A stretch of DNA of 64,000 bases from Gemmatimonadota bacterium. GTDB lineage: Bacteria > Gemmatimonadota > Gemmatimonadetes > Longimicrobiales > Gaopeijiaceae. The translations under genes and the position numbers were made by a program. Numbering within the stretch: the first letter of the stretch is position 1; every line of letters starts with the position of its first letter. Location of the stretch: positions 1-64,000 of the forward strand of contig JBBEBG010000037.1 in the NCBI GenBank assembly GCA_040882465.1, in the 5' to 3' direction. Below, in pieces: positions 6,336 through 17,955 of this stretch. Under the pieces are notes generated by a model. That model saw only the letters and a program-made list of their open reading frames with translations, ran no database searches and was not told where the DNA came from.

Positions 6336-7553
6336 ATGACCGTGGACGACCGACGGCTCCTCTACGCCGCTGCGTTCTTCCGTGCCCTGGCAACCGGAAT
6401 GGTGGGCGTCCTCATCGGAGTGTACCTGGCGAAAGTTGGACTCGACGCCCTCGCCATCGGCAATGTCGTGACCGCAGGTCTCTCCGGCGCCGCCGTAGCG
6501 GCCATGCTCGTCACGCTCGCGGGCGACCGACTCGGTCGCCGAAACTCCCTGGTCGCCCTTTCTCTCGCTGGTGCCATCGGCGGGCTCGGCTTCGCGCTCG
6601 CGTCCGGGCCCGCCGCCATTGGGGCCGCCGCCTTCCTCGGCATGGTAAACGGGATGGGACGGGACCGCGGCGCGTCCGTCATCATTGACCAGGCGATTCT
6701 CCCGGCGATGGCCTCCGAGCCGGAGCGCACGTCGGTCTACGCCTGGTACAACGTGCTTCAGGACGCCGGCCACGCGCTCGGCAGCCTCTTTGCGGCCCTG
6801 CCCACGGTGCTTTAGGGGGTCGCCGGGGTCGAGGAGCTGGCTGCGTTCCGCGCAGCGCTCGTCGTTTAAGCTTCGATCCTCCTTCTCACGGCAGTGGCGT
6901 ATGCGGGACTCTCGGAGGCAGCCGAGAGAGGCCGAGTGACCGAGGCGAAGCCTGTTGTACGCGCATCGCCGGAAACCCGGCGCATTCTCTGGAAGATGTC
7001 CTCCCTTTTCGCGGTGGACGGCGTCGCGGGAGGATTTCTGACCACGGCGCTCCTATCCTTCTTCTTCTACGAACGGTTCGGCGCCGGAGAGGCTGCCGTG
7101 GGACTTCTCTTCTTCGCTACGCGAGTGTCGAACGCGCCGTCGCACCTCGGGGCAGCGTGGCTCGCAAGGCGGTTCGGGCTGCTCAACACGATGGTCTTTA
7201 CGCACATTCCGTCGAGCCTCGTGCTCGTGACCGTGCCCTTCGCCCCGACCTTTCCGATGGCCGCCGTGCTCTTTTTGCTCCGAGAGAGCCTTGTGGAGAT
7301 GGACGTGCCGACCAGGCAGGCTTTTTTGATGGCCGTGATCCGGCCCGAGGAACGCACCTTGGCCGCCGGCGCCACGCACCTCGTGCGGCTCGCGGCATGG
7401 GCCGTGGCGCCGGCATTCGCCGGCCTCCTCATGTGAGGGGTCGGGCTCGGAATGTTCCTTTTCGTTGGAGCGGGAATGAAGGTCGGATACGACATCCTTC
7501 TCTATACCGCCTTCCGGCGATTGAGGCCTCCCGAAGAGTGGGATGGTCTTTGA
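6336..7553 (+). pseudogene. MFS transporter with three in-frame stops
   Basis: One reading frame encodes a complete ~405-codon major facilitator protein with successive hydrophobic helices and the GDRLGRRNSL loop between helices 2 and 3. The frame is interrupted by TAG at 6813, TAA at 6867 and TGA at 7434, yet no frameshift is seen and coding character continues after each stop up to TGA at 7551. Such proteins export small hydrophilic solutes or drugs; the substrate is unknown here. Three different stop codons in an otherwise preserved frame argue for a recently inactivated gene rather than codon reassignment. The C-terminal piece restarts at an ATG at 6894 but could not make a working 12-helix carrier. 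Confidence 0.8.
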
Positions 7554-7989: not shown

Positions 7990-9756
7990 ATGCGTGCGGC
8001 CATCTACGCCAGGTACAGCTCCGAGAACCAACGCCCCGAGAGCATCGAGGACCAGACCGGTGCGTGCCGGCGGCTCGCAGCCCAGCGCGGCTTCTCCGTG
8101 TTGGAGGACCACATCTACGCCGACGAGGCGAAATCGGGGGCTCGCCGCGATCGGGTAGGGCTCGTGGCCCTGGTGGCCGCCGCCCAAAACGCGCAGTTCG
8201 ACGTAGTGCTGGTCGACGACCTCTCTCGGCTCGCCCGCGACAACTACCTCATGCTCTCGGTGATTGCCGAGTTGCATTTCGAGCGAGTGCGGGTGGTGTC
8301 GGTGGCCGACGGGCTGGACAGCGATGACGAGGAGGCCACCCTCGGTATCCAGATCCGCGGCATCTTCAACGAGCTCCAGCTCCGGGACCTGAAGAAGAAG
8401 ACGCTCCGGGGGCAGATCGGCCAGAAGGAGCGAGGCTTCTCCGTCGGCGAGCGGACGTTCGGGTACCGGTCGGTGCCGGTCGGGACGATTCGGATGGATA
8501 AGAAAGGCCGCCCACGACCGGACGGCTACAAGATGGAGATGGAGCCACGAGAGGCCGCCGTGGTGCTTCGGGTCTTCCAGACGTACGCCGACGGGCTGCC
8601 GGTCTCCCGTATCGTGCGCATGTTGAACGAGGAGGGAGTTCCTGGGCGAATCCACTCCGCCAAGGGGTGGTCACCGGCCACGGTGAGCCGGATCCTGGAC
8701 AACGAGAAGTACGTGGGCTGGTGGACCTGGAACAAGACGGAGAGCCGCCGGGACCCGCGGACCGGGAAGCGCCGCCGCTTCACCAAACTCGCGAGCGAGT
8801 GGATCGTTCAGGATGACGATACGCTCCGGATCGTGCCCCAGGAGATGTGGGAGGCAGTTCGAGCCCGACGGAAGGAGGTTCGGCGGAGCTGGCCCGGCGG
8901 GAAGGGCCGGCGAGGGTTCTCGAAGAGCCAGGGAGGCCGGCAGGGCCACTTCCCTACCCACCTGTTGTCGGGAGCCATGGTGTGTGGTACCTGCGGCGCC
9001 GCGATCGCCCAGGTGAGCGGGAAAGCCGGAGGGTACTACGGCTGCCTCGGCGCGGCCAAGGGCGCCTGCAACAACCGCGTGCTGGTTCGGCGAACCCTTG
9101 CTGAGAACGTGATCGTCGGCGCCGTCCGGGAGCAGCTCTCTCGAACCAGGCAGATCCAGTATCTCATCAGCCGCGTGGAGGAGGAAGTTGGCAAGCTCTC
9201 CGTCCACCTTCCCGAAACCGTCCGGGTCAAGGAGGCCGAGCTCGGGGCCGAGGAGCGCCGGCTCGGCAACTTCGTGGACTTCATCGGCGAGGGGCGAGGG
9301 AGCCAGGCCCTCGCCAAGGCCCTCCTGGAGACCGAGCGGCGCGTGGAGGCTCTCCGCGACGAGTTGGACGGCCTGCGCCGTAGCCGGGAGAAGGTATTCC
9401 ACGCTCCGCCCCGGGAATGGATCGAGGACCGCCTGGACGGGATGCAGGAGCTGCTGGAGCGGCGGACCGAGCAGTCAGCCCTCCTACTCCGAGAGCTCCT
9501 CGGCCAGGTCCGGCTCGAGCCCACCCTCGGCGACATCGGGCGACCCTACTACGGGGTGCGCACCACGATCGATTGCCTGGTCCTACTCAAGACGCCGCCC
9601 GGGCGAGGCCCGGACGGCGGTTCGAGTATGTTGCAACAGTGGAGGCGGCGGGAGTCGAACCCGCGTCCGCGAACAGATCCATCAAAGCATCTACGTGCGT
9701 ATCGCCCTATTGGGTTCGCGATCGGCCTCGGCCAGGGCGCAGCCGGTCCGCGCTAG
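7990..9756 (+). CDS. Large serine recombinase, end read into ssrA antisense
   Basis: A site-specific recombinase of the large serine family, which cuts and exchanges strands through a phosphoserine link. The resolvase catalytic domain occupies residues ~1-150 with nucleophile Ser10 (YARYSSENQ). The recombinase domain follows at ~165-290 and a zinc ribbon at ~325-360 (CGTCGAAIAQ then CLGAAKGACNNR). A coiled-coil segment and a helical C-terminus complete it. The last ~38 codons (after 9643) are antisense to tmRNA and include the RRRESNPRP artefact typical of reverse-translated tRNA-like sequence. The native end of the protein is therefore set by whatever sequence the element is joined to. Confidence 0.9.
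   Translation: MRAAIYARYSSENQRPESIEDQTGACRRLAAQRGFSVLEDHIYADEAKSGARRDRVGLVALVAAAQNAQFDVVLVDDLSRLARDNYLMLSVIAELHFERVRVVSVADGLDSDDEEATLGIQIRGIFNELQLRDLKKKTLRGQIGQKERGFSVGERTFGYRSVPVGTIRMDKKGRPRPDGYKMEMEPREAAVVLRVFQTYADGLPVSRIVRMLNEEGVPGRIHSAKGWSPATVSRILDNEKYVGWWTWNKTESRRDPRTGKRRRFTKLASEWIVQDDDTLRIVPQEMWEAVRARRKEVRRSWPGGKGRRGFSKSQGGRQGHFPTHLLSGAMVCGTCGAAIAQVSGKAGGYYGCLGAAKGACNNRVLVRRTLAENVIVGAVREQLSRTRQIQYLISRVEEEVGKLSVHLPETVRVKEAELGAEERRLGNFVDFIGEGRGSQALAKALLETERRVEALRDELDGLRRSREKVFHAPPREWIEDRLDGMQELLERRTEQSALLLRELLGQVRLEPTLGDIGRPYYGVRTTIDCLVLLKTPPGRGPDGGSSMLQQWRRRESNPRPRTDPSKHLRAYRPIGFAIGLGQGAAGPR
9388..9643 (+). repeat. Direct repeat 2 of recombinase 3' end
   Basis: This is the copy of the 407-664 repeat inside the intact recombinase gene. 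It ends at TGGA, which is also the complement of the last four bases of the tmRNA acceptor arm. The junction marks the right end of the integrated element. Confidence 0.8.
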
Positions 9757-12337: not shown

Positions 12338-12727
12338 ATGAAATTTCGAGCGCGCACGGACGACGTGGCCTGGAAAGTTGTGGAAGGGGAAGCGGTCCTC
12401 GTACACGCGGAGTCTTCGGCATATTATGGGCTGAACCGTACCGGGACCGCACTTTGGGAGGCCCTTACGTCGGGCCCCTGCTCGCCCGACGAGTTGGTGA
12501 GCGGATTGTCACAGCAGCTCGATGCGCCGCCGCAGCAGGCGGGACAAGACGTTGACACTTTTCTCAGGAGCCTGGTCGGGGCCGGGTTGGCCACCGAAGT
12601 CCCGGATGCGTCGGAAACCTCGTCAGGGAGTGGGGTACGGCTCGGTCGGGCGGCATCGGGGCCTTACGAACCGCCGCAGGTGTCTCCCTTCGGTGAGCTC
12701 GAGCAGCTCATTCTGAGCGGGGAGTGA
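12338..12727 (+). CDS. PqqD/RRE protein with lasso-leader-like tail
   Basis: Residues ~1-88 form a PqqD-type RiPP recognition element: WKVVEGEAVLVHAESSAYYGLNRTGTALWEAL followed by helices ending in FLRSLVGAGL. A Ser/Gly linker (90-108) leads to a C-terminal tail with Y110, P113, V115 and G119. That spacing, Y-x-x-P-x-V-x-x-x-G, is the signature by which lasso-peptide leaders bind their RRE. The protein ends at residue 129 (LILSGE), where a core peptide would begin. It heads a tight operon with a peptidase-like protein and an HprK-related kinase, matching what NCBIfam calls HPr-rel-A systems (recalled, not searched). Role inferred: peptide chaperone and possibly itself a kinase substrate. Confidence 0.75.
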   Translation: MKFRARTDDVAWKVVEGEAVLVHAESSAYYGLNRTGTALWEALTSGPCSPDELVSGLSQQLDAPPQQAGQDVDTFLRSLVGAGLATEVPDASETSSGSGVRLGRAASGPYEPPQVSPFGELEQLILSGE

Positions 12728-12768: not shown

Positions 12769-13239
12769 ATGGGTGTGAATCTCCTGGCCGCCAAGGAGCT
12801 CCAGCTGGAGCTCTCCTCGAAGGGGCGCCGGCTCTACTTTCACGGTGAGAGCATGCGCCCGTTTCTCGTGGAAGGGGACGAGGTCGTCGTCGAGCCAATC
12901 GCTTTCGACGACATCCACGTTGGAGATGTCGTCACCTATCGGTTCAGCGACAAGTTCCCGACGAGGCGCGTCGTGCGAAAACACCAACGGGGACTGGACC
13001 TCTGGTGCGAGAACTGGCCGGCCCGGCGGTACGTCTGTGCCGCCGAGGACCTGCTCGGAGTCGCGGTGGCACGCGGGCGGGACGGGGAGTGGATCGGCGA
13101 TCGGAGCCCGGAATGGCGAGCCGCGCGGAGGAAGGCTCTCCGTGCATGGCGGCGCATCGCGGCGCGTGAGTACGTCGTGACCTTCCCCGGCCGCGTCGTC
13201 AGAAAGCTCGCGAAGGTCGCTCGCCGCGTTCCCGCCTGA
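12769..13239 (+). CDS. S24/S26 signal-peptidase-like protein
   Basis: This 156-residue protein has the S24/S26 peptidase core. HGESMRPFLVEGDEVVVEP carries the expected nucleophile Ser28 in GESMRP, and VGDVVTYRF follows. The strand that normally supplies the general base (K-R-V-V in LepB, H-R-V-V in SipW types) reads TRRVV, with Arg66 in that position, so classic Ser-Lys or Ser-His catalysis is doubtful. No transmembrane helix is evident; the C-terminus is very basic. It lies 41 bases after the PqqD gene and 33 before the kinase gene. It could process a RiPP-like leader or be a catalytically altered partner. Confidence 0.75.
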   Translation: MGVNLLAAKELQLELSSKGRRLYFHGESMRPFLVEGDEVVVEPIAFDDIHVGDVVTYRFSDKFPTRRVVRKHQRGLDLWCENWPARRYVCAAEDLLGVAVARGRDGEWIGDRSPEWRAARRKALRAWRRIAAREYVVTFPGRVVRKLAKVARRVPA

Positions 13240-13272: not shown

Positions 13273-14247
13273 ATGCACGAACGTCACATCCGTTTGGGTA
13301 GCCTGACCGCCCGCCTCCTTCTCCCGGATGAGCGTTACGGGCACGATGTCGCCCAAATTTTCGGCACTTCGCTCCAGGCTCCGGATTGGGCACCCGTCGC
13401 GGGCATTGGCGCCGAAATCGCATTCGAGGAAAGGCCGGGCGGGCGCGCCGATTCAGGTCCGCAGGTCCCGATGGACGGTATGGTGCTCATGCACGACCCT
13501 CTCCGGCCCGAGATCCACACCGAGGCGCTTTCGCTCTATCTGAATCTCGACATTCACCCGGCCCGAATCCGGCTGGATGTCGTGCGCCTCGACCTTCCCC
13601 ATTTCGACCTGTGCGTTCACCTCGCGGTCGCCTTTCACAAGCTCCTCTTCCTCATGGACCGCGTCGTGCTTCACGGCGCGGCGATCAGCGTGGACGACAA
13701 GGTATGTCTCTTCCTGGGGGACAAGGGGGCGGGAAAAAGCACGATCGCGCTCAAGCTGGCGCGCGCGGGAGGGACGGTCCTCGGCGAAGACCACCTCATC
13801 CTCCGACGCACCGGAGACGGATTCGTCGTGAGTGGGTGTGACGAACGCTCCCGGCTCACCGCCAAAACTGAGGAATTCTTCTTTGACGACCCGCTCGACA
13901 TCGTGCCGAAGGACTTTGCCGGAACGATGAAGAAGGAAGTCCCCGCGGGGGAGCTCTTCACGTCGGTCCCCTACACCGACGGCCCGGTGACACACCTCTT
14001 TTTCCCGAAGGTGGGGAATCGGCTGCTCCCGGCGCGGCTCTCAAGGAAGGAGTTGCTTCTGGAGCTGATGCGGGCGACGGGCAAGCTCCAGCGATTCGTG
14101 GATCTGGCGGATCGGACCCGCTTCCTCGAACTCCTTGCGGCCTTCACGCCTTCGGTCGAGGGGTACCGCCTCGAGCTGAGTGAGGACCTCGCCGATCTGG
14201 ACGATCTCGTGACCTTTGTCCGCGCGCTTCCGGCGCGGGGCAGCTGA
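13273..14247 (+). CDS. HprK-related kinase
   Basis: This 324-residue protein carries a P-loop at residues 149-157 (GDKGAGKST) preceded by VVLHGAAISVDDKVCLFL, the usual HPr kinase/phosphorylase core order, with GEDHLIL after it. The N-terminal ~120 residues are a variable domain. HPr itself and other PTS genes are absent. In lasso clusters, HprK-like kinases such as ThcoK and PadeK phosphorylate the precursor's C-terminal serine, so a peptide target encoded nearby is plausible; Ser127 of the PqqD protein is one candidate. It is the third gene of the operon. Substrate is inferred, kinase fold is well supported. Confidence 0.8.
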   Translation: MHERHIRLGSLTARLLLPDERYGHDVAQIFGTSLQAPDWAPVAGIGAEIAFEERPGGRADSGPQVPMDGMVLMHDPLRPEIHTEALSLYLNLDIHPARIRLDVVRLDLPHFDLCVHLAVAFHKLLFLMDRVVLHGAAISVDDKVCLFLGDKGAGKSTIALKLARAGGTVLGEDHLILRRTGDGFVVSGCDERSRLTAKTEEFFFDDPLDIVPKDFAGTMKKEVPAGELFTSVPYTDGPVTHLFFPKVGNRLLPARLSRKELLLELMRATGKLQRFVDLADRTRFLELLAAFTPSVEGYRLELSEDLADLDDLVTFVRALPARGS

Positions 14248-14260
14248 ACGGGAGTCCCGA

Positions 14261-15367
14261 TTGTCCTCGCACGAGGGCGAGCGTCCCACCCGCAAGACCG
14301 TCGCGTTCCAGGGGCGGCGCATCGGCAAATCCGCCTTCGCTCTGGTGAATTCCCACTGGAGCGCGGGGCTGGAGGGGGACGACCGGTATCGGGTGACCGA
14401 CTACGACCCGCGCGGGGCGGCTCCGGACTTCGTCATCCATCATGACTTCGAGACACATTTTTCGGCCTTTCGGCCGCCCCGCGGGAGTCAATCCATCGCC
14501 GTGCGAACCTGGGACTTCGGGCCACTCCCTACGGCGTGGGTCGAAAAGATCAATCGCGAGTTCGATCAATTCTGGGCCTACAGTCATTGGATCGCCAAGC
14601 AGGCGGAGATAGCGGGCGTGGAGCCGGCGCGGATTCGGGTCGTTCCGCTCGGCGTAGATCCCCAAGTCTTTCGCCCGGATGGGGTAAGGTTTCCGCTGAT
14701 GGACGATCGTTCCTTCCGCTTCCTCTTCGTCGGAGGGGTGAGCGCCCGGAAGGGGACCGACATCCTCCTCGACGCGTACACCCAGGCGTTCACGGCAACG
14801 GACGATGTCTCTCTCGTCATCAAAGACCACTCGGGCGACCTCTTCTACAAGGGAGACGCAGTCCGGAGCCGCATCTCCGCTCTCGCGGCAGACCCCACGG
14901 CGCCGCGTATCGTGCACCTCGACGAGTTTCTGGGGCTCGAGGAACTCGCCGCGCTTTATCGGGCGTGCGACGTGGGTGTCTTCCCTTACCGGGCCGAGGG
15001 CTTCTGCCTTCCGATTCTCGAGGCGATCGCCTGCGGGACGCCGCCCATCGTGCCGAATTTCGGAGCGTGCCTCGACTTCTGCTCCGGGGAGGTGGCCTTC
15101 CTGACGCCGGTGCGGCGCATCAACCTTCCCGTGAACAACCGCTTCAAGGTCGCGCTGGGTTTCGAGGAGGACGTGACGGAAGTGGACTTCTGCGAGGTGG
15201 AGAGGGCGACGCTCGCGCAACGGATGAGGGGAGTTGCCGGGGGGCTTCGTGGCGAACGAGACCGCATGGCGGCGGCGGGAGTGAAACGGGCGCGGGAGCG
15301 CTTTACCTGGAAGGAATCGGTCGCGCGGGTGATCGAGTGCCTGGAGGAGCTGGGCGCCGCGTCATGA
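14261..15367 (+). CDS. Glycosyltransferase, GT4/group 1 type
   Basis: This ~368-residue glycosyltransferase has a GT-B fold. The C-terminal nucleotide-sugar half starts near FRFLFVGGVSARKGTDILLDAY and contains the donor-binding E-x7-E motif EGFCLPILEAIACGTPPIVPNFG. I prefer the TTG at 14261, which follows GGAG by six bases and lies 13 bases past the kinase stop; an upstream in-frame TTG at 14216 would overlap the kinase gene. As the fourth gene of the operon, it suggests that the pathway product is glycosylated or that the cluster serves surface polysaccharide synthesis. Sugar donor and acceptor are unknown. Confidence 0.8.
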   Translation: MSSHEGERPTRKTVAFQGRRIGKSAFALVNSHWSAGLEGDDRYRVTDYDPRGAAPDFVIHHDFETHFSAFRPPRGSQSIAVRTWDFGPLPTAWVEKINREFDQFWAYSHWIAKQAEIAGVEPARIRVVPLGVDPQVFRPDGVRFPLMDDRSFRFLFVGGVSARKGTDILLDAYTQAFTATDDVSLVIKDHSGDLFYKGDAVRSRISALAADPTAPRIVHLDEFLGLEELAALYRACDVGVFPYRAEGFCLPILEAIACGTPPIVPNFGACLDFCSGEVAFLTPVRRINLPVNNRFKVALGFEEDVTEVDFCEVERATLAQRMRGVAGGLRGERDRMAAAGVKRARERFTWKESVARVIECLEELGAAS

Positions 15368-16627
15368 CGACGCGAGCATCGCCCGGTAGGCCGCGACCGT
15401 CCCCTGGGCGGTTCGGGCCCAGGAAAATTCCTTCGCGCGCTCCAGACCCTTCACGGACATCTCTGTCGCCAGGCGGTCGTCCGCGAGGACCTTCCTCAGC
15501 GCGGCCGCGAGACCCGCCTCGTCTCGGGGTTCCACCAAGATCGCCGCGGATCCCACGACTTCGGGAATCGAACCGGCCGTGGAGGTCACCACCGCGGTTC
15601 CGCAACACATCGCTTCCAATGGGGGGAGTCCGAACCCTTCATAGAGAGAAGGATAAGCGAAGGCGCGAGCACCGGAATAAATCGCGCTGAGCTCTGCGTC
15701 AGGGACGTAACCCGTGAGCACGATCCGCTCACGAAGGTCGGGCCGCTCGCCGATCAGCTCGAAAAGCGGTTGTGACTTCCATCCCGTCGGACCCACCAGG
15801 GCGAGCAGAAGCCCGTCGTTTCCCGGTTCGCCGGCGATCGCAAAAAAGGCGCGGAGGAGCGCCGGGAGGTTCTTCCGTGGCTCGAGGGTGCAGAGACTGA
15901 GGAGGTAGTCCCGCCCGGCGAGCCCGTAACGGGCGAGAATGGCCGTGCGCTCCGGGCCGTCGGAAGAGGGTCGGAAGACGCGGGGGTCGGCGGCGAAGGG
16001 GGTCACGAACGCGCGATCATTGGGGAAGCCGAGAATTCGGCAGGCGTCGGCTTTAGTGCATTCGGAGTTACAGATGATCCAATCCGACCCGGGTTCGAGG
16101 CTCCGCGTCATCGCCTGGTGTTCGACCACGAATCGCTCTTCAGCGAGCTCCGGAAAGAGGACCGGGACCATGTCATGAATCGTGACGATGCGGAGCGCCC
16201 CTGGGACCCGATCCCTCGATCGAAGCGGGTGTTTGAGGGAATGGACGATTTCGAACGCGCCGGGAAGTGCTCGCGGACGCGCGAGTCGGTTAGTGAGGGC
16301 TAACTCCGCAACGATCCGCTTTCCTTCCGGGGCGTCGCGGTTGACGGATTCGAGCGAGTCCACCAAACGCACCGACGCGCCCAGGTCCGTTCCCGGTGCG
16401 TCCCACGCGGAAACCATGCGGGCGCCGAGCTGGCCGGCTACGGAGCGGTCGTAGCGCGCGAGCTGGACTTCGGCGACGTAGGATTCGAGTGCGGCGAAGC
16501 CCAGGTCGAGGTCATTCCGGCGAAGGAGCTCATCCACGAGAAACTCGGTGGCCCGAAAGATGCCTGTGCGGGTTTCCGCAGACCCGTGCGCGAGCCCCAG
16601 GTTCGAGACGTCGAGGAGAACTTTCAA
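15362..16627 (-). CDS. Glycosyltransferase family 1/4
   Basis: This ~421-residue GT-B glycosyltransferase has a long N-terminal acceptor domain (with IVTIHDMVPVLFPEL) and a donor domain with YLLSLCTLEPRKNLPALLRAF, VLTGYVPDAELSAIYSGARAFAYPS and EGFGLPPLEAMCCGTAVVTS. This is the mannosyl/rhamnosyl-transferase-like pattern. The TTG at 16627 overlaps the upstream stop as TTGA, giving tight coupling to the nucleotidyltransferase-like gene. Its stop shares the palindrome TCATGA with the stop of the converging plus-strand glycosyltransferase. Specificity cannot be read from sequence. Confidence 0.82.
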   Translation of the reverse strand: MKVLLDVSNLGLAHGSAETRTGIFRATEFLVDELLRRNDLDLGFAALESYVAEVQLARYDRSVAGQLGARMVSAWDAPGTDLGASVRLVDSLESVNRDAPEGKRIVAELALTNRLARPRALPGAFEIVHSLKHPLRSRDRVPGALRIVTIHDMVPVLFPELAEERFVVEHQAMTRSLEPGSDWIICNSECTKADACRILGFPNDRAFVTPFAADPRVFRPSSDGPERTAILARYGLAGRDYLLSLCTLEPRKNLPALLRAFFAIAGEPGNDGLLLALVGPTGWKSQPLFELIGERPDLRERIVLTGYVPDAELSAIYSGARAFAYPSLYEGFGLPPLEAMCCGTAVVTSTAGSIPEVVGSAAILVEPRDEAGLAAALRKVLADDRLATEMSVKGLERAKEFSWARTAQGTVAAYRAMLASS

Positions 16628-17955
16628 CCCGTCCCACCCGGGGTGTGGTCCTCGGGGTCTTGGCCCCAAAAGTGTCGGGTACCCGAACCGGCCACGGAAG
16701 CTCTCCCGAAGCGCCCGGCGGTCTCGGTCCAGAGCTGGTACGCGGCCATCTTGAGCAGACGTCCCAGCCCCCCGTTAGAGATCTCCTCCCCCTCCTCGGG
16801 TGACTCCTTTCCTTCCCAGACCCACTCCAGTGGATCGGCCCTTCTCGCGGCGAGCTCACGCAGTCTGGCGCCCCGCAATGTCCATGACGGAAGGAGCCAG
16901 AACCGAAACAAGTCTTGGGCTGCGACCACACCCTGGGACTTCGCAAATAGGAGGTGTTCCACGGGACGCGCGAGCTCGGTGCCGCGGCGGGAGGCCGGTG
17001 GGAGGCCGCGGCCGTTCGCGGCCCAGTCGGGAACCGGGGTCGAAAGGAGGAGGTTCGCGAGGCGGAGAGAGACCGCGAGCGCGACGCCCAGGTTTCCCGC
17101 TTCGCCCCGGTTTCGGAGGTAGTCCCAGTCCAGCTCTGTGAACGCCGCGATGACCCGGTCCAGATCCACGATTCGGCTGAGTCGCCTGCACCCCTCCTGT
17201 TCGATCTGGCTCACGAGGTGGAGGACCATGTCCTCGGGGGAGGGGACAAGCATCGGGGCGCCACCCGACGGGTGGATCTCCGTCGCCCGTTGGAAGAAGC
17301 GGACGGGGTCCAACGCGCAGGGCGCCCCGGGGCGGGTCAGCCCCTGATGCGCCTCGACGATGAAGCCGTTGGGGTGGGTGACGACGTGGTGGTAATGATG
17401 CTCCTCGATCCCCTCCCTGGCTGCCGCCGAATACTCGCTCGAGTAACCCAGCGTGGAGAGCGTCGAAAGGAGGGGCGTCATGTCCTCCGCGTGGACCAGG
17501 AGGTCCAGGTCTCCCATCCATCGCTCCAGCGGGTGGTCGTAGGCCATATGCCGTAGCGCCCCGCCCTTCAGGACGATGGGGTGAGTCCCCGCCGATCGGA
17601 GGGCCGTGAGGATCCGGTCCTGCTCCAGCTCCCAGAGCGTGGCCTGCTTCCGGAGGAGTGGGAGCGGCTCGAAGAGGGCGGCCCAACCCGATTCCGCCGC
17701 CGGCTCCGTCGAGCGGGCGTCCAGGAGCCTCTTGAGGACGAGACCCCGGACGCCGTGCCGGGCGCACTCCGCGAGAAAGGCCTGGGCGGTCGAGGTCTCG
17801 GTCAGGCCTTCAATGTCGAGGAGGGCCAAGTGATCCGGCGCGTCACGGCGACAGAGCCGGGCGATCAATAGCTGAATCGGCCCCGGCGAAGTGGGTTCTG
17901 AGCGCAGAATTTCCTCGGGATCAGGGATGAGGAGGGCCAGCGCGGCGGGGGCCAC
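16624..17955 (-). CDS. NTP_transf_5-type nucleotidyltransferase family protein
   Basis: This 443-residue protein fits the 'nucleotidyltransferase family protein' group (PF14907). It has VLKGGALRHMAYDHPLERWMGDLDLLV, with K130-G131 and the G148-D149-L150-D151 metal-binding pair of the Pol-beta fold. The histidine-rich EEHHYHHVV and the E-D-M-V-L-H-L stretch are also typical of this family. Such proteins recur beside PqqD and HprK-related genes, in lasso clusters and in exopolysaccharide loci. The reaction is undefined; nucleotidylation of a peptide or sugar is the likely chemistry. It forms a two-gene unit with the downstream glycosyltransferase, converging on the PqqD operon. Confidence 0.75.
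   Translation of the reverse strand: MAPAALALLIPDPEEILRSEPTSPGPIQLLIARLCRRDAPDHLALLDIEGLTETSTAQAFLAECARHGVRGLVLKRLLDARSTEPAAESGWAALFEPLPLLRKQATLWELEQDRILTALRSAGTHPIVLKGGALRHMAYDHPLERWMGDLDLLVHAEDMTPLLSTLSTLGYSSEYSAAAREGIEEHHYHHVVTHPNGFIVEAHQGLTRPGAPCALDPVRFFQRATEIHPSGGAPMLVPSPEDMVLHLVSQIEQEGCRRLSRIVDLDRVIAAFTELDWDYLRNRGEAGNLGVALAVSLRLANLLLSTPVPDWAANGRGLPPASRRGTELARPVEHLLFAKSQGVVAAQDLFRFWLLPSWTLRGARLRELAARRADPLEWVWEGKESPEEGEEISNGGLGRLLKMAAYQLWTETAGRFGRASVAGSGTRHFWGQDPEDHTPGGTG

Follow-up and report, generated by a model that had tools for sequence, protein, structure and literature searches.

The window, that is, the whole 64,000-nucleotide stretch of a Gemmatimonadota contig analysed here, encodes a PqqD-type RRE protein with an unusual C-terminal tail, followed by five genes for a signal-peptidase-like protein, a kinase and sugar- or nucleotide-transferring enzymes. 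One relative of the whole gene set was retrieved, in SZUA-440 (locus L023, same genome as G204), with all six genes present and 35-60% identical. The features are as follows:

12338..12727, + strand: PqqD-type RRE protein with C-terminal leader-like tail, 129 aa (ORF and translation; PF05402, E 3.9e-17)
12389..12589, + strand: RRE (PqqD) domain, residues 18-84, groove residues kept (PF05402; groove according to PMC13381572)
12593..12658, + strand: variable linker, residues 86-107 (1.53 bits per column in 21 sequences)
12665..12715, + strand: leader-like tail, residues 110-126, YEPPQVSPFGELEQLIL (2.81 bits per column; matrix score)
12716..12724, + strand: terminal SGE (Ser127), common to the window and L023 only (C-terminus alignment)
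12769..13239, + strand: S24/S26 signal-peptidase-like protein (TIGR02228, E 2.2e-7, below cut-off; 54% identical in L023)
13273..14247, + strand: HprK-like kinase (TIGR04355, E 3.9e-6, below cut-off; HprK structures, E 0.04)
14216..15367, + strand: GT4-type glycosyltransferase (60% identical in L023)
15362..16669, - strand: second GT4-type glycosyltransferase (51% identical in L023)
16624..17955, - strand: NTP_transf_5 (PF14907) nucleotidyltransferase (E 3.1e-41)

Upstream of this cluster, a large serine recombinase-like ORF (7990-9756) is a possible sign of mobility, and an MFS-like transporter (6336-7436) is seemingly split over two frames (6336-6815 and 6894-7436).

The PqqD protein matched PF05402 over residues 18-84 with 62.8 bits (Pfam cut-off 23.4), while no NCBIfam model scored above its cut-off against it. 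The sequence behind its RRE and linker is GPYEPPQVSPFGELEQLILSGE, and its tail reads YEPPQVSPFGELEQLILSGE. Translation of the ORF placed Y110, P113, V115 and G119 at the spacing that the preliminary description had likened to that of lasso-peptide leaders. Because [YW]xxPx[LVIFA]xxxG arises in 0.4% of shuffles of the last 41 residues, the motif by itself is just moderately improbable. The tail was therefore judged on a score matrix built from 21 separate lasso leaders of related genomes, where it reached 17.9, compared with 14.0-49.2 for true leaders (leave-one-out) and a 99th percentile of 9.3 for the C-termini of 486 background proteins. Just 2 of these 486 C-termini attain the score of the window tail; both are leader-like, and one belongs to the training set. 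In the register of the lasso leaders, I125 occupies position -2 (that of their Thr) and S127 would be the first core residue, so that the tail stops about where a core is expected to start, again as first described. Ile at -2 is known from phosphorylated lasso peptides (PMC10368454). At the level of sequence, the window tail is thereby confirmed as a true leader-type motif carried in cis.

When 394 genomes of the class were searched with a three-row profile, the PqqDs fell into two groups, one aligning through the end of the tail and the other stopping near residue 90. With a 17-row profile, tailed proteins scored 127-185 bits and the others about 70 bits at most. We compared 21 tailed PqqDs, 20 from Gemmatimonadota and one from a cyanobacterial plasmid, with one pair being nearly identical. 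The window tail conforms to the family consensus, [YFW]xxPx[LVA]xx[FY]x[DE][ML], and the motif recurs in the 20 other PqqDs. Among plasmids, the tail was found in Crinalium alone, where it is the same and is followed by LDPIHEVDVEAGWP; the PqqDs inspected in Azospirillum and Tistrella have no tail, and three scans of viral contigs retrieved no relatives. L098 and L198 carry practically identical tailed PqqDs in the same gene order, in genomes of two families (f6 and f7), reflecting either a recent transfer or a binning error.

Across the 21 sequences, the tail holds 2.81 bits per column, the RRE strands 2.84 and the linker 1.53, and P113 is invariant, a property shared by just two other columns in a set of 17 sequences. 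The aligned C-termini bore out the expectation that the tail would be conserved in homologues next to HprK-like kinases. In a tree reconstructed from the RRE part alone, the tailed trait needs 2 changes, versus 18 in shuffles, and a single untailed row on a very long branch falls among the tailed PqqDs. On this tree, the tailed PqqDs are one lineage. Given its conservation across the family, the tail looks like a built-in ligand and not like a product of chance. The most divergent tails score near zero on the lasso-leader matrix, so it is the window pair (the window and L023) that most resembles lasso leaders, and part of the family does so weakly. The Gly at position 9 of lasso leaders is retained in this pair only.

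Most tails continue with LDPIH(E/D)VxxxGWP and some relatives with LDPPMP, so the lack of a core noted for the window does not extend to the family as a rule. A motif of the LDPIHEVD type was not found in the literature searched. The expected conservation of a terminal Ser also failed: the other 19 tails read L-D-P there, and Ser is limited to the window and L023. The proposal that Ser127 is the substrate of the adjacent kinase is, therefore, not general, and would be a possibility for this pair. Both proteins of the pair are without the LDPIH stretch and end in SGE (LILSGE in the window). Loss of the stretch by a frameshift in the window was considered and rejected, since no such stretch lies after the stop and the end is common to L023. 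The two PqqDs are 41% identical overall, and the aromatic residue of the tail is Trp in L023 (PWETP) and Tyr in the window. Their last 12 residues, FGELEQLILSGE, are identical (12/12) even though 7 of the 12 codons are synonymously changed, which argues that the tail is under selection as protein.

B2 or AsnB was encoded within 7 kb in 0 of 17 tailed loci versus 43 of 50 untailed PqqDs (p 1e-10, uncorrected for kinship and with some contigs being short). As the tailed set was picked by its tail and not by its neighbours, this comparison is not circular. A scan for small YxxP ORFs detected precursors in 18 untailed loci (20 of 50 rows) and no credible separate precursor in the tailed loci (p 0.0014). 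At the window locus, neither a B2 protease nor a cyclase lies within 7 kb, and the small-ORF scan finds no separate precursor. The recurrent gene set of tailed loci comprises PqqD, GT2, NTP_transf_5, often an ABC exporter, and HprK, which is often fused to GT2. Such kinase-GT2 fusions are found in L095 (9166-12938), L105 (3580-5361) and L106 (2026-3885), and L095 additionally encodes an NTP_transf_5 fused to an NAD-dependent epimerase. In L201 (1242-2915), one ORF runs from a PqqD through a leader-like tail with LDPVHEVDAAAGWP into an HprK-like kinase; since the tail is internal, this protein does not need to release a C-terminal core. Close relatives of the window NTP_transf_5 sit in other tailed-PqqD loci, and the S26-like protein occurs in the window and L023 and in no other tailed locus. 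A peptidase-like match in Nonomuraea was set aside, having no RiPP context.

The genome of the window also holds L040 (4328-8837 of contig C26), a lasso-type cluster with a separate precursor at 8592-8837, and L039 (6396-12284 of contig C1), a second PqqD-B2 cluster, in which an HprK-like gene and a separate YVKPELQRYGTFREVT precursor are also present. The leader of the L040 precursor, YEPPRLVSFGD, is very like the window tail, and cross-talk between RREs is possible on the basis of this resemblance.

Among described systems, the closest is the LPP type reported in 2026, the linear polyphosphorylated peptide (lpp) gene clusters of Bacillota (PMC13381572). Both bring together a discrete RRE, a signal-peptidase-I-like protein, an HprK-like kinase and an NTP transferase, although the window kinase and peptidase fall below curated cut-offs, and both share a glycosyltransferase gene setting and a [Y/W]xxPx[V/L] motif. 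However, the LPP precursor is separate and reads YxxPxVLxHQxIxFETxxS, whereas the RRE of the window carries its leader fused to it, no such separate precursor was found at this locus and the tail has neither HQ nor FET. The LPP core set includes an MsbA-like exporter, which several other tailed loci have and which a profile from two relatives did not find in the window, and its peptidase has an active S-H-D, whereas the base position of the window peptidase reads Arg by motif register. Paeninodin-like and pseudomycoidin lasso clusters (PadeK, PsmK/PsmN) resemble the tailed loci in combining an RRE for YxxPxL leaders, an HprK-like kinase and a nucleotidyltransferase, and their leaders resemble the tail, but the tailed PqqDs have no B2 protease, cyclase or separate precursor nearby. 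A PqqD beside an HprK-related kinase also recalls HPr-rel-A, yet this label, used in the preliminary description, fails, with TIGR04352/TIGR04353 at 18.5 bits (cut-off 200) and 24.5 bits (cut-off 35). PqqD-type or discrete RREs such as TbiB1 and PbaB1 are alike in domain and groove, whereas the untailed relatives examined have no leader-type tail.

At the base position of S26-type peptidases, active relatives have Lys or His, with KR typical of bacterial enzymes and HR of archaeal-type ones. The S26-like protein has Ser28, and by motif register its base position reads Arg66 (TRRV) both in the window and in L023, the alignments with active enzymes being weak. LppS requires S29, H68 and D93 (PMC13381572). 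The window kinase has H134, the P-loop GDKGAGKS and, according to a motif survey, E172-D173 where relatives have DD. The ED variant is found in the window and L023, and DD in every other readable kinase of the tailed loci; lasso kinases require a His-Lys-Asp-Asp motif (PMC9266682). Read from sequence, the ED and Arg substitutions suggest weakened or changed catalysis in the window pair.

Alignment with PbaB1 (9x90) showed that the pocket residues Y30, L32, L39, L57, F75, L79 and L84 are kept in the window PqqD, and its D71 corresponds to LppB D70, the residue that bonds the leader Tyr (PMC13381572). Across the family, an Asp at 71 accompanies 8 of the 12 Tyr tails and none of the 9 Phe/Trp tails (Fisher 0.005, the sequences not being phylogenetically independent). 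On the tree, this link amounts to at most 4 pairs, 1 of them on well supported branches, and with so few independent events the Tyr-Asp covariation is no firm test. In the second pocket, residue 41 is Leu in the window and Ala, Ser or Thr in many tailed relatives. An AlphaFold2 model of the window PqqD, from a two-row alignment, was too poor to use (mean pLDDT 45, tail below 40). Without a leader, free RREs of this type can be insoluble or just half folded (PMC13381572), which gives a built-in leader a reason.

The reading that we favour, with a probability of about 0.5, is that the tailed PqqD is a self-liganded RRE serving phosphate- and sugar-modifying enzymes as a scaffold or as a presenting module. 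We infer that the leader-like tail would fold back into the RRE groove, either of its own chain or of the partner chain in a head-to-tail dimer, and occupy the site that free leader peptides take in lasso and LPP systems. The RRE filled in this way would form a stable, always-on scaffold gathering the HprK-like kinase, NTP_transf_5 and the glycosyltransferases. In most family members, it may present the conserved LDPIH(E/D)VxxxGWP stretch behind the tail, and the product would probably be phosphorylated or glycosylated, and often exported. The branch formed by the window and L023 is probably a repurposed, more structural version, since the LDPIH stretch is replaced by SGE and the peptidase and kinase have unusual catalytic residues. 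Speaking against self-liganding are the poor structural model, the few independent Tyr-Asp events, the variation of residue 41 among tailed relatives and the restriction of the position-9 Gly to the window pair. The stretch behind the tail is, in addition, conserved, which fits a modified product too.

Such a product could be the PqqD itself, a possible but rather unlikely reading in which the protein would be its own RiPP-like substrate, with the tail as leader and SGE or LDPIH..GWP as the modified part. In the window, the kinase would phosphorylate Ser127, and NTP_transf_5 and the glycosyltransferases would add sugars, yielding a protein-bound sugar-phosphate primer. A precursor in cis fits the tailed loci, where a separate one was not found, as well as the position of Ser127, which is kept in L023 and lies at +17 from Tyr110; the phosphorylated Ser is at +18 in LPP by the published motif (PMC13381572) and at about +19 in BsfA (PMC10368454). 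In pseudomycoidin, moreover, PsmK/PsmN phosphorylate a C-terminal Ser and then add hexoses (PMC9266682). However, neither at the place of Ser127 nor beyond it is a Ser/Thr conserved in the other 19 tails, the tail of L201 is internal, and the window kinase has ED instead of the catalytic DD. That RREs with a cis leader act, with no separate precursor, as a carrier for phosphate or sugar build-up (on Ser127 in the window) or as the source of a conserved peptide we regard as unlikely.

We consider it more doubtful still that the tail is a docking motif for the kinase, NTP_transf_5 and the exporter, acting outside its own groove and resembling a leader by descent from an old precursor-RRE fusion. 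The strong conservation extending beyond YxxPxL into DMxDLLxLDP and the existence of a PqqD-tail-HprK fusion would agree with partner docking, but the pocket-filling aromatic residue and the Pro are among the best-kept positions, and the groove residues of the window are kept. Action of the tail in trans on the other RREs of the cell (two lasso-type ones in the genome), as an inhibitor or cross-pathway signal, is very improbable: although the L040 leader from the same genome is so similar and similar leaders are known to bind non-cognate RREs (PMC13381572), the tail is confined to a single lineage with its own neighbourhood, and its placement in cis gives a high local concentration at its own groove.

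The favoured reading, an RRE occupied by its own tail, bears on how loci of this kind are interpreted. RREs are viewed as adaptors that recognise a substrate through a leader on a separate peptide. If the leader is built in and there is no separate precursor, mining for precursor genes would find none at such loci. A lineage that combines a built-in leader with kinase and sugar-transfer partners and lacks a separate precursor would alter the reading of these loci, and the tailed PqqDs could help to explain why HprK-like kinases and NTP_transf_5 are paired with polysaccharide genes.
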